22,737 nt of DNA from a virus. Both the position numbers and the translations under genes were made by a program. The notes below the pieces were generated by a model. It was not told where the DNA came from and did no database searches. It saw only the letters and a program-made list of their open reading frames with translations. Of this stretch, positions 8,921 through 22,737 are shown in pieces (within the stretch, counting starts at the first letter, position 1; the number at the start of each line of letters is the position of its first letter). The DNA lies in IMG/VR virus record IMGVR_UViG_3300010354_000713, positions 1 to 22,737 of that record. The stretch is one strand, 5' to 3'.

Positions 8921-10783
8921 ATGAGCGCTGTTTTATCTGGCTTAAATATAAAAAATATTTTTGAATATTATACTGGCAACTCATATTCAAAATATGATAT
9001 TGTTGATTTTCAATTAACTACAGGTATTTCAGCTTATCCAAGTTATACTGGTTTTGGTCAATCAGGTTTGACAACTTGGTTCAACAACGATTTATTAAAT
9101 AATTTTTCTTTAGATGCTAATTTTAATGTTTCTGGATGGATTAACTTAGTCAGTGGAAGTGGATCTTTAAAACAAACAAGTAATGATGAAAATTCAAGAC
9201 CATATATTGATTTCAATGAATATTATATAGATATATATAATAAACAATCATTAAGTGGTACAGGTTTTGCATCTAACTCCAGAACTATATTTTTAACTGT
9301 TAACGCTGGTAATATTTCATATATAAATCAAACTCAAAAACTAATTAAATTTGGTTTATCTTCTGATTATGGATTTATAAAATTGAGTGGAGAAAATACA
9401 AATGGTAATGCGGTTATTTTTATTGATGATCAACAATTTAATGCGCCTTCTTATATTTATGATACGAAAAATATTTATACTATAATTCAAGATAGTTCTG
9501 CAAATGTTTTAAAATTAAGACAAAATGGTATTTATGTCGGATCAATAAATTCTTTTAGTAATTATTGGAAAAATGAACAATTAATTTTAGGCGATAATAA
9601 CGATAATAAATCTTTGAAATATTATGAATTGATTCATTTTACAGGGATTTTAAAAGATGAAGAAATTGATTGGTATGAAAAATATTTATTTGAAAAATAC
9701 TTCGATAATAAAAGTTTATATTATGCTAAACAAAATGTTCCGCAAGGTATAAATTATTCTCCGATTTCTTTTACGGGTGCTGATTATTGGACACGCAATA
9801 TAAATGATTTATTTAAAATTAGTTATGGATCTAATGCGTCGTTTTCTTCTAAATTATCTAATTTGATGATGGGTGACGGTTATCAAAGCAACATTGCAAA
9901 AAATATAAATACATTAAATTCTAATTTTTCAATTAATTATGATGGCTTAACAGATACACAAGCAAAATGTTTAATAGCTTATTTTGAAAATACTCCAGAA
10001 GCAAATAAAAAAAGTTTATATGAGGGTTTCAAAGGAGTAGAATTAGATTTATTTTCACCATATAAACCTTCTGCTGAATTATATTTTAAAAAAATTGATC
10101 ATACAACACCTTATAATAATATAAATAATGTTAAAATTGAAGCCGAGTCTTTATATGATAGCTCTTTAGATTATAAAGGTATGTTGGTTCAACTTGACGA
10201 AATTAAAATAAGAACATATACAGACACAATAAATCAATTAAAATATAATGATGTTTTTTACTATAATTCTGATTCTTTTTTAGATAGAGGATATTATTTT
10301 TACACTGGAGAAAATTTTATTACAGAAGGAAGTAACATTGCATTTCCAGTCAATATTTCTCCAGAAAATAGTCCTACTGGTGAAAATTCTTGGTTTACTA
10401 AAAGTTTTTATTTCAAAGGGGAAATAGATTATTCTTTAAATAACGAATTAAGATTACGTGTTAATGATAGTAAAAATTCAACAATTGAATATGATAAAGA
10501 TGGAATAAATTACAATTTACTAGAGTTTAATATAAATTTTAACAGAAGAACAAACTCAGAAGCAATGGCTATTTTGAAGTTTTTAGATGATAAAGCTGGT
10601 TATAAACCTTTCCAATATACTCTTCCTCAACCTTATAATAAAACTATTAATGTTTATTGTCCAGAATGGAATCATGTATATAATTTTTATAACAATAATG
10701 ATATTAGTGTAAAATTTAAAGAAATAAAAGCACCTTTAAAATTTACATCAAGTTTTAATACAGATATTTATTTTTCGATATGA
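8921..10783 (+). CDS. M: Tail-tip gpM-family protein with LamG-like module and doubled gpM domain
   Basis: A 620-residue protein, far longer than lambda gpM (about 110 residues). Residues 47-263 look like a LamG/concanavalin-type domain (GLTTWF opening, SRTIFLTV strand, YELIHFTG...YLFEKY closing motif). Residues about 287-430 resemble gpM (phage minor tail protein family): MGDGYQSNIAKNIN at 317, then NINYD-like strands, a helix with A-CLIAYF and an LFSPY segment. Residues about 500-605 repeat the plan: KDGINYN, EFNINF, EAMAILKFLDD, YKPFQYTLPQPY and VYCPEWNHVYNFYNNNDISV. gpM joins the tail tip next to gpL in lambda. It overlaps the next gene by an ATGA junction. The gpM assignment rests on recognised motifs and gene order; the LamG call is weaker. 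Confidence 0.75.
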   Translation: MSAVLSGLNIKNIFEYYTGNSYSKYDIVDFQLTTGISAYPSYTGFGQSGLTTWFNNDLLNNFSLDANFNVSGWINLVSGSGSLKQTSNDENSRPYIDFNEYYIDIYNKQSLSGTGFASNSRTIFLTVNAGNISYINQTQKLIKFGLSSDYGFIKLSGENTNGNAVIFIDDQQFNAPSYIYDTKNIYTIIQDSSANVLKLRQNGIYVGSINSFSNYWKNEQLILGDNNDNKSLKYYELIHFTGILKDEEIDWYEKYLFEKYFDNKSLYYAKQNVPQGINYSPISFTGADYWTRNINDLFKISYGSNASFSSKLSNLMMGDGYQSNIAKNINTLNSNFSINYDGLTDTQAKCLIAYFENTPEANKKSLYEGFKGVELDLFSPYKPSAELYFKKIDHTTPYNNINNVKIEAESLYDSSLDYKGMLVQLDEIKIRTYTDTINQLKYNDVFYYNSDSFLDRGYYFYTGENFITEGSNIAFPVNISPENSPTGENSWFTKSFYFKGEIDYSLNNELRLRVNDSKNSTIEYDKDGINYNLLEFNINFNRRTNSEAMAILKFLDDKAGYKPFQYTLPQPYNKTINVYCPEWNHVYNFYNNNDISVKFKEIKAPLKFTSSFNTDIYFSI

Positions 10784-12160: not shown

Positions 12161-13591
12161 ATGTGGAAACCACTAATTAATACAAACACAACACCGATAA
12201 TTGAAGACGATCAAATAATATCTTCTAAAAATATTATTCTCACGAATCCTGTATCTAATTCAATTTCCAGTGATACAGTTGGTAATAATAATCCACAAGG
12301 AAATGTAATTATTAAATCAACGTCTAGTAATGATTTAAATGAATCTGTTTCAGAAGTATCAAGCAATGCTGCTAATAGATACAAAATAACACCTATTGGT
12401 TTAACACAACCAGCTGGCGGTTTTCAAGCAACAACAAATACATTCCCTAATGTTTATTTTAATTTCAAAAAAATTGAATATGTTGATTCAGATTTAATTT
12501 TTAAATTTACATGTGATGATTTAAATTCCGCTGGAAATACTTCAACAACTTGGTCGTGTGATCCAAGAATAAAAAATTTAACTTTAACTAGTGTTACTAC
12601 AGGAGCTTTAAAATCTGTTAAAGCTTATGATAAATATTTTTATCAATTGAAAGAAGAAGCGGTATTGAAAAATGACGCTATTTCTTTATATCCAACTACT
12701 GCTCCTGCTTATACAATATTAGTTTTTGCTTTAGGAAATACAGCTTATTATCAAAATCAAGATGAAAGTGATTATAATTTATTAACAAGCACTCCAATAA
12801 TACATAAATTTGCATCGGATTGGAATTTAGATGTTTATAATATAGGTAAAAAAATAATTGATGGAACTAGAATACCAAAGACTTATTATTTATTTTCTGG
12901 ATCTACATTAAATAATTTACACTATTTAAGTGAGTCTGGAAATCGATATGTAGATGGCATAACTTTAATAAATCCAGATTCAAGTTTTTTTAATTATACT
13001 GATACTCAACCTGGCTATTGGCAAAATTTTATTAATTATCAAAGACTAGGATCAGCAAATTTAAATCCAATTAAATATTTTAATTTGAAAAATATGCCTA
13101 ATAGTGCAACTGGTTCACCTTCTAATGTATCTATTGATAATGGATCAACCATAAAAGATTATAATGTTTTTACTTTATTTTTTGTGCAAATGCATAGCTA
13201 TGTTGATTTTAATGCGAAAGATAATTTAGATGTAATTAATTTTGAAACATATATTAATGGTTTACAATCATTTAATGCTAAATTACCTACATCTAAAAAA
13301 TTAGATACTAATCAGCCTAAAAATTATTCTATTCGTTTAAGCAATTCAAGAACTGCTAATTCGACTGCTGATATGTTTTTATTTGATTATATACATGGTA
13401 ATTCTACCACTGTTGAAAAAATGAAACAAAAATCAGATCAAATAGTACAATCTTTAGTTTACAAATATAGAAATTTAATTTTAAAAAATGTTGGAGATTT
13501 TCAAATGACTAGATATAATCCAAATTTTAATGTTCAGTTTCCCGCTAACATTCCTCATCCTTATTTGAATATATATATGAAAGGCAGTTGA
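12161..13591 (+). CDS. Tail-tip protein of unknown family, probable LamG-like C-terminal half
   Basis: A 476-residue protein that I cannot place in a named family. Residues 1-80 are Asn/Ser/Thr-rich and probably extended. Residues about 100-260 are beta-rich with a few Cys (CDDLNSAGNTSTTWSCDP). From about 290 to 441 it follows the outline seen in the LamG-like modules of the gpM and gpL proteins here: a YNVFTLFFVQMHSYVDF strand near 334, then MFLFDYIHG and a helix ending LVYKYRNLI near 433-441. The gene lies between the glycine-rich/FN3 protein and gpL, so a virion tip role is likely. The start ATG is eight bases after the previous stop and about 14 after an AGGAGG. The stop is followed by a 37-base gap, the largest in the window. 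Confidence 0.6.
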   Translation: MWKPLINTNTTPIIEDDQIISSKNIILTNPVSNSISSDTVGNNNPQGNVIIKSTSSNDLNESVSEVSSNAANRYKITPIGLTQPAGGFQATTNTFPNVYFNFKKIEYVDSDLIFKFTCDDLNSAGNTSTTWSCDPRIKNLTLTSVTTGALKSVKAYDKYFYQLKEEAVLKNDAISLYPTTAPAYTILVFALGNTAYYQNQDESDYNLLTSTPIIHKFASDWNLDVYNIGKKIIDGTRIPKTYYLFSGSTLNNLHYLSESGNRYVDGITLINPDSSFFNYTDTQPGYWQNFINYQRLGSANLNPIKYFNLKNMPNSATGSPSNVSIDNGSTIKDYNVFTLFFVQMHSYVDFNAKDNLDVINFETYINGLQSFNAKLPTSKKLDTNQPKNYSIRLSNSRTANSTADMFLFDYIHGNSTTVEKMKQKSDQIVQSLVYKYRNLILKNVGDFQMTRYNPNFNVQFPANIPHPYLNIYMKGS

Positions 13592-13628: not shown

Positions 13629-15524
13629 ATGTCAAGTTTATTTTTATTACAGAATTCTGAGGTTTTAGACCTTTTTGAAATAAAAATAAATGATTTTGAA
13701 GGTTATTTTAGATTTCATGGATCTAAAAATTTCAATAAAGATATTGTTTTTAATGGTAATACTTACTTGTATATACCATCTGAAATTTCGAATTTAGAAT
13801 ATAATTCTGAAGGAAAACAGAATCGCCCTACTTTGTCTATCGCGAATATTAATAATTTTATAACTAATTTTATTAAGGATAGAAATGATTTATTAGGAGC
13901 GCGTTTTTATAAAAAGAAAATACTGGCAAAAGATTTAGACGCTGTGAATTTTGGTGGAGAAAATAAAAATCTGTTGGGAGTTAGAAATTCTAATAATTTT
14001 ATTTCTTCTGATTTATATACAATTCAAAAAAAGAATTTTGAAACTAAAGAGAAAGTTGAGTTTACTCTTGCTAGTATATTAGATTTAGATGGATTAACAG
14101 CACCGTCTAGAAAAGTTTATAATGATAGTTGTCACTGGCAATATCGTGGTTGTGGCTGTAATTATGGTAAAATAAATGGATATAAAGGTCCTCAAACTGA
14201 AATAGGATTTTCTCCTTTTAATTCATTGTCAGATATAAATACATACAATGGTAATAATTTAACAAGTAATCTAGTTGTTTGGTTGCGCCCTGAAGGAATA
14301 AATACTTCCGGTACAACTGTAATGAAACAATATAACTCACCAAGGTCAGAAATTTTTTCTCAAAAAACATATGAAAAAATTACAAGTTGGACTAACGAAG
14401 GAACAGCAACAAGTCCAGTTGCTCCTACCATAACTCGTTATCCGAAATTATATAAAAATAGTGGAAGATTGAATAATAAAAATGGAGCTTATTTTACTAC
14501 AGATTATTTTAATGTTGATATAGATTCAATTATAATAAATCAAAGTTATACAAATAAAGATGTTACCGTTTTTTGTGTTTTGGAAATGGTTGCAGAAAAA
14601 TATTTACCGGGTTCATTTTGGAATACATGTTCTGCTAAGGGAGGTTTAATTAGAGCTGGATTAACTACAGATACAAATAATACAGGCGGTAACAGATTTA
14701 TTCTTGGTTATTGGGAGAATCAAGAAGATGTATTCTATTCTCAAAACAAGTATTATAATAATGTTAATTCTGATCGATGTAGTTCTATTGGTGATGCCAG
14801 AATTTATGGAGCTGTTATGCCGAAAACATTAACTGAAATAACAAATTATATAAAAAATGGCGAAATATATCCAAAAGTAAGAGGTGTTGCAAATCAGCCT
14901 GGATATCTAGGTATAAATACTTATAATAATTATTCTAGTGAAATTGTTTTATATGAATTAATTGTTTATGATAAAATTTTAACAAATGATCAAGTTAAAC
15001 AAGTTAATGCATATTTAAGTAATAAATATAATATTTCTATTAGTTATGATGCTAGTTATATAAAATATAAACCCAGTTCTGAGTATTTTGTTAATTCTGA
15101 AGGTAATTTAGGAATTCCTGTTTGTGATGAGAATAATAAATTATTTTTAAAAGCAGCTTCAGCTAAATCATCTAAAACAAATTATGAATCTTATAATTTA
15201 AATACTTTAACTTGGAAAGGAATATATAATAAAGATACTCAATATAATCAAGGCGATTTTGTCAAATTGGATCCTTCGATAGATTATGATTTTAATGAAA
15301 AATCAATGTATAAAAATTATGAAGTGCCAAGTAAATTTTTCGTTTGTATATCACAGAATGGATCTAAAGGAGTAAATCCCGCTTCTAATACTAATATTTG
15401 GATCGAAGATAGATGTTCAAAAAATCTAAATGGATGTTTATTGAGATTTGATGATAGTAAAATTAATATACCTTTTGGTGGATTTCCAGGAACTGTTGGC
15501 TATGAATATAAATTGCCAAATTAA
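13629..15524 (+). CDS. L: Tail-tip gpL family protein, iron-sulfur domain split by LamG-like insertion
   Basis: A 631-residue relative of lambda gpL (232 residues). The N-terminal half is clearly gpL: NRPTLSIANINNFITNFI, LLGARFYKKK, LDAVNFGG, and EKVEFTLASILDLDGLTAPS. The cysteine region begins HWQYRGCGCNYG with Cys168, Cys175 and Cys177. The chain then departs into a LamG/concanavalin-like module at about 211-472 (NLVVWLRPEG, VTVFCVLEM, YELIVYDKIL...YLSNKYNIS). It returns to gpL with Cys499, a W...Y--GDFVKL carbohydrate-module-like stretch at about 533-545, then DRCSKNLNGCLLRF (Cys596, Cys603) and LPFGGFPG-like IPFGGFPG. In lambda, four cysteines bind a [4Fe-4S] cluster; the 168/177 and 596/603 spacings of nine and seven fit that pattern as I recall it. 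It overlaps gpK by 23 bases. Confidence 0.88.
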   Translation: MSSLFLLQNSEVLDLFEIKINDFEGYFRFHGSKNFNKDIVFNGNTYLYIPSEISNLEYNSEGKQNRPTLSIANINNFITNFIKDRNDLLGARFYKKKILAKDLDAVNFGGENKNLLGVRNSNNFISSDLYTIQKKNFETKEKVEFTLASILDLDGLTAPSRKVYNDSCHWQYRGCGCNYGKINGYKGPQTEIGFSPFNSLSDINTYNGNNLTSNLVVWLRPEGINTSGTTVMKQYNSPRSEIFSQKTYEKITSWTNEGTATSPVAPTITRYPKLYKNSGRLNNKNGAYFTTDYFNVDIDSIIINQSYTNKDVTVFCVLEMVAEKYLPGSFWNTCSAKGGLIRAGLTTDTNNTGGNRFILGYWENQEDVFYSQNKYYNNVNSDRCSSIGDARIYGAVMPKTLTEITNYIKNGEIYPKVRGVANQPGYLGINTYNNYSSEIVLYELIVYDKILTNDQVKQVNAYLSNKYNISISYDASYIKYKPSSEYFVNSEGNLGIPVCDENNKLFLKAASAKSSKTNYESYNLNTLTWKGIYNKDTQYNQGDFVKLDPSIDYDFNEKSMYKNYEVPSKFFVCISQNGSKGVNPASNTNIWIEDRCSKNLNGCLLRFDDSKINIPFGGFPGTVGYEYKLPN

Positions 15525-15843
15525 AAATGAATTATATGAATTGTTAAAATATAAATCTTGTCTTTCTGTAAGTGAGATATGCGGATTTATCATTAAAAAT
15601 AATAATGTTTTTGATACTTTCATTGAATGCAAAAATATGCATCCAGATCATAAAAATTATTTTTTGATATCTCCACACGATTATATTTTAGATCAGGATG
15701 TTATTTTATTTCATAGTCATCCTAAGCATTGCGATATAAATGGTTTTTCTGATTGGGATATTGAAAATCAATCTTGTTTTTGTTTAAAAATGTTATTATA
15801 TAGTGTAAATAAAGATAAATTTTATTATAGAGATTATGACTGA
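15502..15843 (+). CDS. K: gpK-type tail protein, JAMM/JAB peptidase domain only
   Basis: I chose the ATG at 15502 (113 residues). A longer frame from 15448 adds 18 residues that would overlap gpL much more and precede the conserved domain; the 15502 start has AGGA ten bases upstream. The protein has the full metal-site pattern of JAB/Mov34 peptidases: Glu25 in SEICGFI, HSHP at His71/His73, then Ser83 and Asp86 in GFSDWD. The fit to lambda gpK extends through YFLISPHDYIL, DVILFHSHP and the final LLYSVNKDKFYYRDY. The chain stops where the JAB domain ends; the C-terminal NlpC/P60 cell-wall peptidase half of lambda gpK is missing. It sits between gpL and gpI as in lambda and overlaps gpI by eight bases. 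Confidence 0.85.
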   Translation: MNINCQIKNELYELLKYKSCLSVSEICGFIIKNNNVFDTFIECKNMHPDHKNYFLISPHDYILDQDVILFHSHPKHCDINGFSDWDIENQSCFCLKMLLYSVNKDKFYYRDYD

Positions 15844-16366
15844 TATTACTTTACATGGTATTTTAGGAAAAAAATTTGGAAAATTTTGGAAATTAGAAGT
15901 TGAATCTATTTTTGAGATTTTTGAGGCTATAGAAGCTAATAATTGCAAAGTTAATAAATATTTTAGTGATTTTAAAAAATTTGTTACTCATTTTATTGTT
16001 TATGTTGATGGAAAACCAATGTCTTCTCATTTATTAAGAAGTAAAATTTTAAAAGAAAACAGCAAGGTCGAAATAATACCTGTTATTCAAGGTGGTTGGA
16101 TTGTTGCGCTTATTGTGGTTGGTATTCTATTAATTGTTCTTTCTATAGTATTATCAATTGTTTTGAGTCCTAAAGCCCCTTCAGATATAAAAACTAATTC
16201 GACAATATTGGGAGGAGTTAGAAACGTATTGAATAGAAATATCACGGTTCCTTTAGGATATGGTAGATTGAGAATTGGAAGCGCGGTAATTTCTAATGAT
16301 ATCATTGTTTCAAAAATTAATGATAATACATCTTACTTATTGTCGTATCAGTCGGGAAATATTTAA
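15836..16366 (+). CDS. I: gpI-family tail assembly protein (beta-grasp plus membrane segment)
   Basis: A 176-residue protein of the lambda gpI tail assembly family. Residues 1-84 fit the beta-grasp (ubiquitin-like) fold described for this family: ITLHGILGKKFG, KLEVES, a helix, FIVYVDGKPM and a KVEIIPVIQGG end. A Gly-Gly pair lies at 86-87. A hydrophobic helix covers 89-111 (WIVALIVVGILLIVLSIVL). The C-terminal part carries LGGVRNVLNRN and the family signature PLGYGRLRIGSAVIS at 139-153. In lambda, gpI is needed for tail-tip assembly and is not clearly a mature virion part. It starts inside the gpK end, which points to translational coupling with its JAMM neighbour, and stops three bases before gpJ. 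Confidence 0.85.
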   Translation: MTDITLHGILGKKFGKFWKLEVESIFEIFEAIEANNCKVNKYFSDFKKFVTHFIVYVDGKPMSSHLLRSKILKENSKVEIIPVIQGGWIVALIVVGILLIVLSIVLSIVLSPKAPSDIKTNSTILGGVRNVLNRNITVPLGYGRLRIGSAVISNDIIVSKINDNTSYLLSYQSGNI

Positions 16367-16369
16367 TAT

Positions 16370-19300
16370 ATGAATATAAATGATTTTTTTGTTAAAAATG
16401 TTTCTCCTGATGCTTTAAAATATTTTAGTTTAACATATAGCAATGGTTTATTAGAATCAGATGAAAAACTGATTTGTACCGATTTAGTTTGCGAAGGACC
16501 TGTAGAAGGTTTAGTAAATAAAGATGGAGAGCTTTTAAAATACGTTTCTGATTCAAACGATACAAATATAGAAAACTTGATATTGGGTAAAGGTGTTTAT
16601 TATAATAATGTTCCTTTGATTGATACAAAACTAGATAAATTAAATTATGTAACTCAAGGATTCAGTATTTCTTATGGTGAAGAGTTGAATAATTATAAAA
16701 ATCAATATGCTTCGACTGTTTATAAATATAATCAAAAACTTTACTTGAATGAAAATAATACATATGAATCTATCTATCCTCGATATAGAAATGGTGTTTA
16801 TGCTTTTGCAAATATTGATACAAATACTGTTAAATTTAACGATAGTCTAAATACAGTTGAAAATACACAATACATAACAGATTTGGAGACTCAAAAATTT
16901 ACAAATCAAAAATTAACACTATCTTCTTTAATAACTGAATTAGATGAAATAAAAAAAACTTGTCAAGATTTTAATCATAAAATAAGAAATAAATATTGTG
17001 ATCAAATATCTATACAGATAAGAGTGGATAGATTATTTACAATGGGTAATAGTCCAGGCCCTTATGATGCCACATTAGCGATTGAAATTAGTGAAGATAA
17101 TACGGCTAATAGATTTTTTCTGATATTTTCTGTATATGGAATTTCGAAATCTGATTTTACAATTGACTTGCCGATAAATTTAAATTTAAATTCAGTTACA
17201 GCTAATAATTATTATGTTAAAGTTTATGCTATTTCTCCAAAGATAAATCCTAATGTGGGAAATCTTTTCAGAGAAATCAGTGTTTCTGCTATTATTGAAA
17301 GAATTAGAAATAAAGGTAGTTTTGGCTATCCTTTCTCATCTATTGTAAAATCCGCTGTAAGTTCCAGACATTTTAATAAAGATCCAGAAAGAACATTTGA
17401 TTTAAAATTGTTAAAAATAAAAGTTCCTAAGAACTACGATCCTGAATGTAAAGAATATACAGGAAATTGGAATGGCGTATTTGATTCTTTTTTAAGATGG
17501 ACTGATAATCCTGCTTGGATTTTTTATGATATTTGTACAAATGCTCGATATGGAGTTGGCAATGGTAAAATTTATGAAAAAGATTTAAATAAATGGGAAT
17601 TATATAAAATATCTAAATATTGTGACGAATTGGTTAAGGTCAGTACTCCGAATAAATATTTTCCAGATTCTTTTAAAATTTCTGTTCAATCTCCTAATTC
17701 TCTTATTGTTCCTGTAAGTGGCGGTGATGGCAAAGCTAGAAGTTTGGATGACATAAAAAAACAATATCCGCCTATATTTGATTTGATTGATAGTAACTAT
17801 GCAAACAATAATGGTGGTTTGCAAAATAGTTTAATTTATTTATATAATTTAAATAATGGCATTAATTCTTTGGACACTGTTTATAAAAAACTGATATGGT
17901 CTATTGAGGCTTTCGATTTGGATGCTCAAGGTAATGAGGTTGCGGTAACTGATGGATTACCTTCTTATTATAAAATCAATTTAATAAATGATTTTGGACC
18001 GCGTAAATTTTTTGAAAATGATACAACGGGTTTATTTCAATCTTTTTGTCAAACGCAAGTTGCAGCAATTGATACTCGGGCTAGTTTAAACGATAGAATT
18101 CAAAGAAGCAAAAAAAATACAGAAGGAAATGCTAAAAATTTTATATTGCTTTCAATTGCCAACGCTAAAAAAGCGAATTTGTCTACATATGATTCTTTAA
18201 TTAATTCATCAATTTTTCCTAATGATGTTATAGAAACAATAAAAGATAGAGGCGATTTCGGTTTAGTGGGTAATTGTTTACCAAGAGTTTTAAATTATCG
18301 AGATCCATTTGAGCATAGATTCACTTGTAACTTATTGATTGATAATGAAGTAGAATGTTTAAAACTATTGAATGATATTGCTTCTATTTTTAGAGGAATA
18401 ACTTATTATAAAAGTAATTATATTACTTCTACTATAGATGTAGATAAGCCTATTTCTTATATATTTAATAATTCAAATGTTAAAAATGGTTACTTCAGTT
18501 ATTCAAGTGCTAGTTTAGATGGAAATTATACAGTTGCTAAGGTTCTATATAAAGATAAATATGAAAATTATATTGAGCAAGTAGAAATAATTGAAGATGC
18601 GCTACTTATAAAAAATTATGGTATTGTAACAAAAGAAATATTAGGGTTTGGAATTACATCAAGAGATCAGGCAAGAAGAATTGGTCAATGGATGTTATTA
18701 ACAAATAGATTCGAAAATCAAAGTATATCTTTTTCGACTGATTTGCAAGGTGTTATTTTAAAACCTAGCGATATTATTCAAATACAAGATCAAAATAAAA
18801 ATGACTCAATTATACAAGGCAGAGTTGTAAGTGTTGATTTTGATAATAAATATATAGTTGTTGATAGACAAATTAATTTGGCTATGGTTGGTAAAAAAAT
18901 AAAATTTTTATTTGATCAACTGGGAGAAACAATTGATAGTTTAAATGCTAAATCAGAAGTTTCTGATAGTGATATTGATAATTTACAACCTTCTAAAATA
19001 ATAGAACTTCAAATAGATAGAATAGAAAACAATAAAAACAGAGTTTATTTCGACACATCTTATAATTATATTGATTTTTATAAACTGATAGCAACAACGC
19101 CTTTTATTATTATTGATACAGATTATAATAATTCACAAAACTTATATAAAATCATATCGATCAGTGAAGTTGATAATAATGAATATTCTTTGTTTTGTAT
19201 TAAACATGATCCTGCTAAATACGAAGCTTTAACAACTTCTATTTTAAATAAAGCAATAGATTTTTCTCAGAACACAATCAATTTTTCTAATTCAGATTTA

Positions 19301-19744
19301 ATATCTGAAATCGATGTTTCTAATATTAATTTTTATTCTGTTACAATGTATGATTTAAATAGCTTGTTTACTTTGAATTTAGATTATTCTTTTAATGAAT
19401 TAAGACAGTCATTGATAATGGATTTGTCAAAAACTAAAGATTATGGTGTCATGTATTTAAATTTGATTAATTTATTTAATAAGATTAATGACTTTAGCAA
19501 AGATTCCAATAATCCTTTGAAAAATTATTATTTAAATATTCAAAATGTATTAAATAATAAAGGAGGAATTTTATGTAAAATTATGTTACGCAATCAATCT
19601 GTTAAATTTATTGTTAGAAATAGTGATATTTCTAATAAGATAATATTTTTAGGTAAATTCGGCGTTTCTGATGTAACGTTATCAGCATCTGCTGATATCA
19701 AGTTTTATTTATTTGATTCAGAATATAAAATAATCAACGTGTAA
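16370..19744 (+). CDS. J: gpJ-family central tail-tip protein (core without receptor-binding fibre)
   Basis: An 1124-residue tail-tip hub protein; lambda gpJ is about the same length. Family landmarks in order: LICTDLVCEGPVEGLV at 34; RNKGSFGYPFSSIV, then KVPKNYDPECKEYTGNWNG, DNPAWIFYDICTNARYGVG at 379; YCDELV at about 417; EHRFTCNLLIDNEVECLKLL at 648; GQWMLLTNRF...SFSTDLQGVILKPSDIIQIQDQ at about 770-805; and YKIISISEVDNNEYSLFCIKHDPAKYEA near 925-955. Two things are unusual. About 220 extra residues lie between YCDELV and EHRFTCN, which are nearly adjacent in typical relatives. The chain also ends soon after the HDPAKY element, without the FN3 domains and fibre of lambda gpJ. Those appear to be supplied by the next gene. 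It forms the central tip and would contact the host. Confidence 0.92.
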   Translation: MNINDFFVKNVSPDALKYFSLTYSNGLLESDEKLICTDLVCEGPVEGLVNKDGELLKYVSDSNDTNIENLILGKGVYYNNVPLIDTKLDKLNYVTQGFSISYGEELNNYKNQYASTVYKYNQKLYLNENNTYESIYPRYRNGVYAFANIDTNTVKFNDSLNTVENTQYITDLETQKFTNQKLTLSSLITELDEIKKTCQDFNHKIRNKYCDQISIQIRVDRLFTMGNSPGPYDATLAIEISEDNTANRFFLIFSVYGISKSDFTIDLPINLNLNSVTANNYYVKVYAISPKINPNVGNLFREISVSAIIERIRNKGSFGYPFSSIVKSAVSSRHFNKDPERTFDLKLLKIKVPKNYDPECKEYTGNWNGVFDSFLRWTDNPAWIFYDICTNARYGVGNGKIYEKDLNKWELYKISKYCDELVKVSTPNKYFPDSFKISVQSPNSLIVPVSGGDGKARSLDDIKKQYPPIFDLIDSNYANNNGGLQNSLIYLYNLNNGINSLDTVYKKLIWSIEAFDLDAQGNEVAVTDGLPSYYKINLINDFGPRKFFENDTTGLFQSFCQTQVAAIDTRASLNDRIQRSKKNTEGNAKNFILLSIANAKKANLSTYDSLINSSIFPNDVIETIKDRGDFGLVGNCLPRVLNYRDPFEHRFTCNLLIDNEVECLKLLNDIASIFRGITYYKSNYITSTIDVDKPISYIFNNSNVKNGYFSYSSASLDGNYTVAKVLYKDKYENYIEQVEIIEDALLIKNYGIVTKEILGFGITSRDQARRIGQWMLLTNRFENQSISFSTDLQGVILKPSDIIQIQDQNKNDSIIQGRVVSVDFDNKYIVVDRQINLAMVGKKIKFLFDQLGETIDSLNAKSEVSDSDIDNLQPSKIIELQIDRIENNKNRVYFDTSYNYIDFYKLIATTPFIIIDTDYNNSQNLYKIISISEVDNNEYSLFCIKHDPAKYEALTTSILNKAIDFSQNTINFSNSDLISEIDVSNINFYSVTMYDLNSLFTLNLDYSFNELRQSLIMDLSKTKDYGVMYLNLINLFNKINDFSKDSNNPLKNYYLNIQNVLNNKGGILCKIMLRNQSVKFIVRNSDISNKIIFLGKFGVSDVTLSASADIKFYLFDSEYKIINV

Positions 19745-19752
19745 AATAAAAT

Positions 19753-22737
19753 ATGCCGATAATTACGGGTTCTAATTTAAATAGTTATGGTAAATATGAA
19801 ATAGTAGATTTTTCTATTTCGAATCTTAATTCTTTTTCTAGTTTAAATTATACTGTTAATCCTTCAATTTTTGGTCTGCCTGTTTCGGCTAAAATAGTTT
19901 CAGGAACTATAAATCAAAGTGATTTTACAATTGCTTTAACGATAAACAATCCAGAAACAAGTTCGGATATTCGTAAAGGAGTTATTACTGCCGAATCTTT
20001 TTCTGGAATCAATTTTGATGTTTATACAAAAGATCGCATTTATATTGGAACTATTAGTAATGGTTATAGTCAAACTGATATAACATTTAATAGTAAAGAT
20101 TTAGTTGATTTAGTTACTTCGTATACGGGTGTTACAGATATTTCATATTTGAGAGAATTTTTTATTGATATAAATACTTATGATAGAGTTGGTAATAATG
20201 ATGTTTATTATTTTTTATTAAATTATCCACAGGTTCAAATTTCGGGAATTGAAATTTTAAATGCAAATCCTTTAAATATAACACCTTTGTTAAAAGATTA
20301 TTCATCTGTTAAAAGTTTAGATGTTTATTCTGTATATAATAAAAATGTAGTTCCAGGCACTGTTGGTTTTAATATTAATCAAAGTGGTTACTATAATAAG
20401 TCTTTTGATTATGAAAATACAAGATATAGAAAATCTTTAAGTTTGCCAATACCAACTTATTTTAATAATGATTTACAAATAGCTTTGCCGTTTAATTTGG
20501 TGGTTATTCCAAAAGATTATTTTGGAACTGGTAATTATCTTTTAACTTCTGGAATAAAAACATCTTATTTTAATACAGATGCTGTTCCTGTATCAATTGA
20601 TAATATTACTGGATATATAAGTTGTACTCAAAATGAATATGATAAAAATTTAGATTTGCAAGCAGTTGTTAAATGGAATGATATTAGACAAACAAACGCT
20701 TTATCTTTTGAAACGTATGTTTATGAAGATGGAGCTGATAATGCTAATTATGTTTTTGCAAGTAATAATCCTCAAATTGAATCGATTATAGATTTTGGTT
20801 TTGGAACTGGAACTGGTATAGTAAAAGCTCCATTAACATCTAATTATTATTCAGGAACAACGCCTGTTTTTAGACCGTATGGAACTTCTGGTATAGAATG
20901 GTCTGATCATACTTTATTTGTCGATAATTATTCTTCTTATCCGATTGATTTTTATTCAACTGGAATAGATTTCAAATATATAACAGAAATTAGAGTTCCT
21001 TCTGGAAAAATAGAGTCTTCCGAATTATATTTTATAAAAGTTTTTGATACAGGTAATGGAACTTTTAATATATTACCGAACGGTGGATTATATAGTGGAA
21101 GTATATATACAGGAACTTATTCTGGAGCAAGATTTATTTCTGGTGGTCGATATTTAGAATATGAATATGGTGGTATTGCCTCATCAAGCGATCCTGGTTT
21201 TTGTAAATTAGCATCGGATTTTGCATTAGGATCGCCTAGTGTTGCAGCTATTTCTATTGATAATGTCAATTTTTTAGGAAACGATGTTGCGTTTTTTGCT
21301 TCTAGAATAACTGGTCAATTAAAATTAGAGAAAAAAGATAATTCTAATTCTTATATTATATATGATCTTGCGGGTTATTATGATTTTGGTAATTATATTG
21401 AGTTATCTGTAAATCAATATAAAACATTAAATCCTAGTTTAATTAATTCGGGAGACCATGTTTTATTAAGCAGATTTAGTTCTGAGCCTTCAACAATAGA
21501 TTACGAGCAAGGTGTTTTATTAGCAAAAAGAATTACTGGAAATTCTAATTTTATTTTATCTGAATTTGAACCGAAAGTTAAATTTCCCATAAAACCTGAT
21601 AAAAATTATGAAGTCAAAGTAAGAGCTTCATATCAAGATGGTAGTTTTTCTGATTTTTCAGAAACATTAAGGTTTACATCTGGTCAAATTGCAGATGTTG
21701 TTACTGGTATAACAGATGGTAAATTTGTTATTGATGGTTCTGGTGTTAGTGGTTATTTAGCTGTTTTTAGTGATAAAGATACAATAACAACAGGAACAAT
21801 AAGATATAGTGGCAATAATCAATTAGTATTTAATCAATTACCAGATACAACTACTACAGCTTCTAAAGTTTTAGTTTTAGAAGATAATATATTAAAAATA
21901 CAAGAAGGAGATTTTAGTTCAGATGCTGAAAGATTAATAAGAAATTTTACACAAGTTGGTCATTCATTTGTAACTGGAAACATTTTAGGTTTTAATGATG
22001 TTACTGGTTGGTTCAAGGCTAACGCTGAGTCAATAAGTACGGCTGAAGTTGTTGGTATTGTTCAGAATGTATATGTTGACAATTTTGATTTAGTATACAA
22101 TGGTAGAGTTACTGGATTAAACAGTTTAAATGAAGGTAGTGTTTATTTCCTTTCTCCATATACTTCTGGAGCTTATACTGAAACAGAACCTACATTTATC
22201 GGACAAGTAACAAAACCTGTTTTGTTTGCATTATCTCCTACGGAGGCAAATTTTATAATATATAGAGGTTTTGAAATAGTTGAAAATAATGGTGGTCAAG
22301 CATCTAGTGGAACTTCAGGAACTTCAGGTTCAAGTGGTTCTTCAGGAACAAGTGGAGTTGGGATTCCTGCTGGTGGAACAATAAATCAAGTTTTGGCTAA
22401 AGCTAGTGATAATGATTATGATACGGTTTGGGTAAATCAATCAGGAGGTGGTGGTTCAGGTAGCGCAGGCACAAGCGGATCTAGTGGAACTTCTGGCTCT
22501 AGCGGTAGTTCTGGAACAAGTGGTAGTTCAGGATCAAGTGGTACATCTGGATCTAGTGGAACTTCTGGTACAAGTGGACGTTCAGGCTCTAGCGGTAGCT
22601 CTGGTACAAGCGGCAGTTCAGGATCAAGTGGTACATCTGGATCTAGCGGTAGTTCTGGAACAAGCGGTAGTTCAGGATCAAGTGGTACATCTGGATCTAG
22701 CGGTAGTTCTGGAACAAGCGGTAGTTCAGGATCAAGT
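19753..22737 (+). CDS. Tail fibre/adhesin with FN3-like parts and Gly-X-Ser repeat tract (3'-partial)
   Basis: An open frame of 995 codons from ATG with no stop before the window edge; the start follows the gpJ stop by eight bases. The N-terminus reads MPIITGSNLNSYGKYEIVDF. An FN3-like segment resembling the gpJ stalk lies near residues 280-320 (DNITGYISC...QAVVKW). A second FN3-like end is near 611-640 (YEVKVRASYQDGSFSDFSE). A module common in phage fibres follows at about 766-845 (VVGIVQNV...NGRVTGLNSL...VYFLSP...YRGF). Next is a short Gly-Ser/Thr tract (850-867), a linker IPAGGTINQVLAKASDNDYD (870-889) also typical of fibres, and a long Gly-X-Ser tract from 906. It probably replaces the receptor-binding C-terminus missing from gpJ. 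Function is inferred from modules and position. Confidence 0.85.
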   Translation, partial: MPIITGSNLNSYGKYEIVDFSISNLNSFSSLNYTVNPSIFGLPVSAKIVSGTINQSDFTIALTINNPETSSDIRKGVITAESFSGINFDVYTKDRIYIGTISNGYSQTDITFNSKDLVDLVTSYTGVTDISYLREFFIDINTYDRVGNNDVYYFLLNYPQVQISGIEILNANPLNITPLLKDYSSVKSLDVYSVYNKNVVPGTVGFNINQSGYYNKSFDYENTRYRKSLSLPIPTYFNNDLQIALPFNLVVIPKDYFGTGNYLLTSGIKTSYFNTDAVPVSIDNITGYISCTQNEYDKNLDLQAVVKWNDIRQTNALSFETYVYEDGADNANYVFASNNPQIESIIDFGFGTGTGIVKAPLTSNYYSGTTPVFRPYGTSGIEWSDHTLFVDNYSSYPIDFYSTGIDFKYITEIRVPSGKIESSELYFIKVFDTGNGTFNILPNGGLYSGSIYTGTYSGARFISGGRYLEYEYGGIASSSDPGFCKLASDFALGSPSVAAISIDNVNFLGNDVAFFASRITGQLKLEKKDNSNSYIIYDLAGYYDFGNYIELSVNQYKTLNPSLINSGDHVLLSRFSSEPSTIDYEQGVLLAKRITGNSNFILSEFEPKVKFPIKPDKNYEVKVRASYQDGSFSDFSETLRFTSGQIADVVTGITDGKFVIDGSGVSGYLAVFSDKDTITTGTIRYSGNNQLVFNQLPDTTTTASKVLVLEDNILKIQEGDFSSDAERLIRNFTQVGHSFVTGNILGFNDVTGWFKANAESISTAEVVGIVQNVYVDNFDLVYNGRVTGLNSLNEGSVYFLSPYTSGAYTETEPTFIGQVTKPVLFALSPTEANFIIYRGFEIVENNGGQASSGTSGTSGSSGSSGTSGVGIPAGGTINQVLAKASDNDYDTVWVNQSGGGGSGSAGTSGSSGTSGSSGSSGTSGSSGSSGTSGSSGTSGTSGRSGSSGSSGTSGSSGSSGTSGSSGSSGTSGSSGSSGTSGSSGSSGTSGSSGSS
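22303..22353 (+). repeat. Short Gly/Ser/Thr triplet tract
   Basis: About 17 codons of Gly-(Ser/Thr)-Ser triplets (SSGTSGTSGSSGSSGTS). A linker with the IPAGGTINQVLAK motif separates it from the long tract of the same composition. Confidence 0.85.
22468..22737 (+). repeat. Gly-X-Ser tandem repeat tract with 54-base units
   Basis: Thirty consecutive Gly-X-Ser codon triplets run to the window edge. X is Ser or Thr except for one Arg at 22579-22581. At DNA level, 54-base units at 22621-22674 and 22675-22728 are identical and a third copy begins at 22729. Earlier units (22477-22530, 22531-22584) and a 36-base unit (22585-22620) differ mainly at third codon positions. The pattern keeps the frame and is consistent with recombination or slippage expansion at the 3' side. 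The tract would form an extended fibre segment. Confidence 0.92.

Follow-up and report, generated by a model that had tools for sequence, protein, structure and literature searches.

In phage lambda, the iron-sulfur (Fe-S) domain of the tail tip protein gpL is on the outer surface of the tail tip, and its [4Fe-4S] ligands are arranged as C173-x8-C182 ... C205-x6-C212; the role of the cluster is described as uncharacterised (PMC10721106). Opening of the tail involves a rigid-body rotation of the 4Fe-4S domain (PMC11101478). Some gpL homologues are without the cluster, and the gpL C-terminal region has been described as a focus of hypervariability in a 2026 paper (PMC13243795).

Related hub proteins have a domain between their Fe-S segments. 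The g13 hub of RcGTA has Fe-S segments at residues 143–167 and 250–263 around a putative sugar-binding domain (residues 168–249), and its cluster is seen by cryo-EM (PMC7296036). The hub of roseophage R4C, also with a cryo-EM cluster, has segments at residues 142–161 and 244–266 around a domain at residues 162–243 (PMC10276861). In both, the inserted domain is called oligosaccharide-binding (PMC7296036, PMC10276861). The upper baseplate protein of JBD30 has Cys147, 156, 238 and 245, spaced 9 and 7, at one putative metal (PMC11445458).

The window analysed here is the whole 22,737-nucleotide stretch of a virus record (IMGVR_UViG_3300010354_000713, 22.7 kb, G+C ~25–35%). Its source is an uncultivated, AT-rich virus that infects bacteria. 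The genes for gpL and for the gpM-, gpK-, gpI- and gpJ-like proteins are on the + strand. An uninterrupted open reading frame at positions 13629–15524 encodes a gpL-like tail-tip hub protein of 631 aa with two inserted modules. It matches the Pfam family Phage_tail_L (PF05100) with 127.6 bits and E = 5.4e-37 (curated cut-off 25), phrog_18 with E = 2.4e-49, and the solved lambda gpL (8iyk_L) with E = 3e-17; the F2-pyocin and T1 homologues are also matched. A first profile yielded 44 relatives in IMG/VR. No relative was found in the bacterial genome contigs that were scanned.

The lambda tail-tip gene order M-L-K-I-J is present in the window, except that two additional genes separate gpM from gpL. 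A gpM-type distal tail protein is encoded at positions 8921–10783 (PF05939, E = 1.3e-15). Its gpM domain is at residues 496–601 and is preceded by ~490 extra residues. Residues ~40–265 of these look LamG-like, from a weak profile match to the lectin-like domain of gpL (probability 7%, P 0.005), and a stretch N-terminal of the gpM domain resembles the small GDFVKL module of gpL. The open reading frame directly upstream of gpL (12161–13591; 2439–3950 in L026) has no Pfam match, and in L037 it is apparently fused with the preceding gene, giving 928 aa. Downstream are a gpK-like protein (15502–15843; phrog_30 minor tail protein, E = 2.5e-11), a gpI-like tail tip protein (15836–16366; phrog_32, E = 8e-25) and a gpJ-like hub/central fibre protein of 1124 aa (16370–19744; phrog_31, E = 3e-95; PF13550, E = 2.6e-11). 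The gpK-like protein consists of the JAB/JAMM half alone (HSHP...SDWD; Pfam Prok-JAB weak, E = 0.12), without the NlpC/P60 half of lambda gpK. Matches to tail fibre families were obtained for an open-ended reading frame at 19753–22737, at whose end are long collagen-like SGTSGSSG repeats.

The gpL open reading frame can be divided into six parts. The N-terminal, HDI-like domain (aa positions 1–160, nt positions 13629–14108) carries Pfam and PDB matches and has a mean pairwise identity of 0.65–0.77 among relatives. The first half of the Fe-S domain follows at aa positions 164–188 (14118–14192), with Cys168, Cys177 and an extra, variable Cys175. The second half is at aa positions 593–622 (15405–15494), with Cys596 and Cys603 in the sequence EDRCSKNLNGC...FGGFPG. 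The earlier note had recognised a gpL with an intact N-terminal half and a DRCSKNLNGC/FGGFPG end, and the PF05100 match and the retention of both invariant cysteine pairs bear this out. Between the two halves are a hypervariable, concanavalin-A/LamG-like jelly roll at a site termed a (aa positions 196–468, 14214–15032) and a small beta module, GDFVKL...FFVC...P...W, at a site termed b (aa positions 505–592, 15141–15404). A remnant of the ordinary gpL linker is found between them at aa positions 493–504 (15105–15140; NLGIPVCDENNK, equivalent to GPPVADERDN).

This remnant bears on the history of the protein. Ordinary gpLs show the linker pattern C(G/N)Y.G.PVADE.DNPT.DP..DKCS. In the window gpL the old motif GxPVADENNK is present as GIPVCDENNK at aa positions 495–504, and alignments place the lectin-like domain N-terminal and the GDFVKL module C-terminal of it. 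What had been taken for one insertion, a LamG module with an adjoining GDFVKL module, is therefore two separate insertions at two linker sites. Each full-length relative examined keeps both cysteine pairs with 385–525 residues between them; since the IMG/VR relatives share the long linker, an artefact of the contig does not account for the insert. One relative, L096 (3001–4674), has a gpL frame that stops at residue 558, although its tblastn match to the query continues as far as residue 630; that contig therefore has a frame change at this point.

In a sister clade the pairs are separated by 120–158 residues, which comprise the site-b module and, at site a, only a short variable stretch. A more distant gpL, L223, also has the site-b module and is without the site-a insert. 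In a tree of core columns rooted on ordinary gpLs, the lectin-bearing clade (36 sequences, support 0.87) and the site-b-only clade (23 sequences, support 0.97) have no intruding sequences. The union of both clades (59 sequences, support 0.97) and this union plus L223 (60 sequences, support 1.0) are likewise undisturbed. Because the sister clade and L223 carry the small module alone, the site-b module appears to have been gained first, and the simplest history from the alignments and tree would be site b first and site a later. The signature Y..GDxV...FFVC...P...W is conserved in both clades and in L223. We take this signature to be like that of CBM5/12; neither CBM5/12 nor any other Pfam model matched the module in any member searched, thus the CBM5/12 identity is unconfirmed and the likeness is one of signature.

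The frequency of such linkers was assessed in a sample drawn blind to the insert. A DNA pattern for KYLDAVNF, in the HDI domain, gave 43 non-redundant gpLs with both cysteine pairs, and their linkers are 14–26 residues long except in L223 (113) and L244 (177). The 177-residue site-b linker of L244 (1524–2687) is helical-hairpin-like with a small domain, and is apparently unrelated to the window modules. Among cultured phages there were 589 gpL matches, none of which spans 80% of the window query, and tblastn with the lectin-like domain gave no match. Two long-linker exceptions in 43, together with the negative searches of cultured phages, indicate that the gpL cysteine-pair linker is, as judged by these sequences, a rare yet repeatedly used insertion site. 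A third gpL insertion site is seen in L222 (1379–2614) and L280 (1357–2343), where inserts follow an NFP/NFA motif in the HDI part.

The earlier note had proposed structure prediction and fold searches for this protein. AlphaFold2 given the 34 close relatives alone produced a poor gpL core (mean pLDDT 66), as the flanks are too conserved; an input widened with shorter and distant gpLs (99 sequences) gave a good core. The resulting monomer model has a mean pLDDT of 84.5 and a pTM of 0.70, with pLDDT mostly >85 at residues 190–480 and ~91 in the second cysteine segment (residues 591–600). A Foldseek search of the PDB ranks 8iyk_L first (E = 3.7e-12), and the T1 hub is also top-ranked. In VIA comparison with 8iyk_L, Z is 16.6 and 206 of the 232 lambda residues are aligned (model positions 8–621 with chain positions 16–225) at 27% identity; the match covers the HDI plus Fe-S fold. 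The rmsd of 9.3 A suggests that the HDI and Fe-S domains are probably oriented differently in the two proteins. Since the alignment extends over positions 8–621, both cysteine segments are within the predicted gpL fold and the insert is looped out.

In the model, the insert at aa positions 196–468 is an independent concanavalin-A-like domain. With VIA it matches the tailspike of cyanopodophage Pan3 (9vyh_p; Z 17.3, 212 residues aligned, rmsd 3.4) and domain 4 of the arabinanase AbnA (Z 16.6–17.1), that is, with Z up to 17.3 and 17.1 for a jelly-roll fold of the concanavalin-A-like lectin type. The independent module that had been proposed at about residues 211–472 is thus upheld with slightly different limits. 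The Pfam LamG and Laminin_G models have no match in the window gpL or in 10 diverse members, so that “LamG-like” holds by fold only. Jelly-roll matches to clostridial neurotoxin binding domains and sialidases were also obtained; these reflect a shared fold only and are uninformative on function.

The best explanation of these results, which we hold with fair confidence, is that the window protein is the gpL-type hub in the tail tip of a lambda-like siphophage, with a [4Fe-4S] domain that would be split in sequence and unsplit in the predicted fold. The Fe-S domain would serve as a base for a displayed, host-facing lectin-like domain, and three copies would be displayed around the hub. This domain may be exposed and may bind a glycan of the host surface; its probable role is attachment to host cells. 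It counts against the sugar-binding part that concanavalin-A-like folds are also used for purposes other than sugar binding.

The pattern of variation is relevant here. Mean pairwise identity is 0.65–0.77 in the gpL parts (0.73–0.77 in most flanks) and mostly 0.26–0.38 in the lectin-like domain, where the last helix is higher at 0.49. In the clearest pairs (L031/L036, L002/L005, L001/L043 and L027/L031) the first core segment is 94–97% identical and the insert 38–60%. The insert is thus hypervariable between flanks that hardly change, a pattern that would be expected if the domain binds the host, and its variation may track the diversity of host surfaces. The pairs are not uniform. The insert of L020/L021 evolves just a little faster than the core, and the difference between L037 and L038 is for the most part a single block, of the kind that recombination leaves behind. 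In L007/L008 the pN/pS ratio is higher for gpL than for the other genes compared, and gpJ is milder; the gpM-type protein, unlike the gpL insert, shows no hypervariability in this pair. Some pairs also show fast evolution of the protein directly upstream of gpL (L026 and L029 are 0.66 identical there), hence the gpL insert need not be the sole host-facing part.

An unlikely alternative is that the inserts are structural and not adhesive. They would fill out or stiffen the tip, for instance by packing onto gpJ or the products of the upstream genes, and would vary by drift, as a weakly constrained spacer does. Neither insert is recognised by Pfam models, and no sugar-binding family model matches them, as this alternative would have it; variable patches of gpJ at ~81–160 and ~401–560 in one pair might also reflect contact partners. 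Under weak constraint, however, pN should at most approach pS. For L006/L008, pN is 0.004 and pS 0.08 in the core, whereas the insert has a pN of 0.213, above its pS of 0.17. Local segments reach 0.31–0.34, and those of L007/L008 confirm the rise (both measures were counted on aligned codons with no correction, and the insert alignment is less certain). In addition, the jelly-roll core motifs are kept among the members, which argues that the lectin-like domain itself is not decaying.

The window gpL has cysteines at positions 168, 175, 177, 316, 334, 384, 499, 573, 596 and 603. Cys168-x8-Cys177 and Cys596-x6-Cys603 have the ligand spacing of lambda (9 and 7), although 418 residues separate Cys177 from Cys596, as compared with 22 between Cys182 and Cys205 of lambda; the figure of over 400 given previously is correct. 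Among 34 full-length close relatives the only invariant cysteines are those at positions 168, 177, 596 and 603, with cysteine at position 175 in 23/34 and at position 573 in 31/34. When 99 diverse gpLs are aligned, ranging from short ordinary ones to the window type, these four cysteines are again invariant, and the second pair has a spacing of 7 in 99/99 and the first a spacing of 9 in 91/99. The four positions are constant across linkers of ~20 to 525 residues. The set of cysteines that had been singled out can therefore be reduced to these four, since Cys175, conserved in 23/34, has no ligand equivalent.

These observations suggest that a [4Fe-4S] cluster forms in the window gpL, but the existence of gpL homologues without it means that the cluster cannot be taken for granted here (PMC13243795). 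The same homologues lend something to a quite improbable second alternative, in which the cluster is lost or replaced and the cysteine pairs are apart, each forming disulfides or a site of its own in which Cys573 or Cys175 takes part. The conservation of Cys573 in most close relatives would fit this. Cys573 is nevertheless absent from several members, and the restriction of invariance to the four lambda-spaced positions, whatever the linker length, speaks against it, as does JBD30, which has the same arrangement around one putative metal (PMC11445458).

The hypervariability of the insert raises one further question of origin. Lectin-like folds are common targets of diversity-generating retroelements and protein change is strongly local here, but such an origin, in place of an ordinary fast-evolving or recombining domain, is very improbable, as close pairs differ chiefly by transitions, both A/G and C/T (58 and 44 in L020/L021), with no adenine-only pattern, changes are found throughout the domain, and in one pair the difference is a recombination-like block.

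The reading of a gpL hub with a displayed lectin-like domain has two implications. If the cluster holds the base of a hypervariable lectin-like domain in this family, one use of a tail-tip Fe-S cluster would be to provide a stiff base that can accommodate large inserted loops. The reading also draws attention to gpL as a host-facing protein in one group of uncultivated AT-rich phages, whereas gpJ and the fibres are where determinants of host range are usually looked for. A rather doubtful extension is that host range is set chiefly by gpL, not gpJ, and that a bound glycan could exert a pull on the outward-rotating Fe-S domain, on which the lectin-like domain sits, and help to trigger tail opening, beyond holding the particle. 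The rotation of the lambda domain makes it conceivable, as a speculation, that ligand binding might bear on opening (PMC11101478).

Lambda gpL (PF05100, 8iyk_L) is among the known systems closest to the window gpL. Both have the two-domain fold, four cysteine ligands spaced 9 and 7, and a place in the M-L-K-I-J order; the window protein differs by 418 in place of 22 residues between the pairs and by two extra modules. Like the RcGTA and R4C hubs, it has a domain between two cysteine pairs. The insert of those hubs is single, of ~82 residues, of the LKA1 tailspike insertion/T4 hub type and not described as concanavalin-A-like. The large insert of the window gpL matches concanavalin-A-like folds. 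JBD30 has a smaller linker (81 residues), and the part of its report at hand mentions no lectin-like domain (PMC11445458). The Pan3 tailspike (9vyh_p) is the closest solved fold to residues 196–468, but has 11% identity and is part of a tailspike, not of a hub protein.

Evolved Dit proteins, from siphophages that infect Gram-positive bacteria, likewise have carbohydrate-binding modules inserted in them and belong to a ring of the tail tip (PMC6669499, PMC10688798). The carrier there is Dit and not gpL. We know of no metal site at the insertion point of these proteins. Experiments on RcGTA, R4C and JBD30 have shown that a single metal site can form with an inserted domain, and ~80 residues, between the pairs, so that the metal-stapled mounting which the earlier note proposed is a known principle. 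The fold of the insert, its size, the two-step history and the hypervariability appear to be new.
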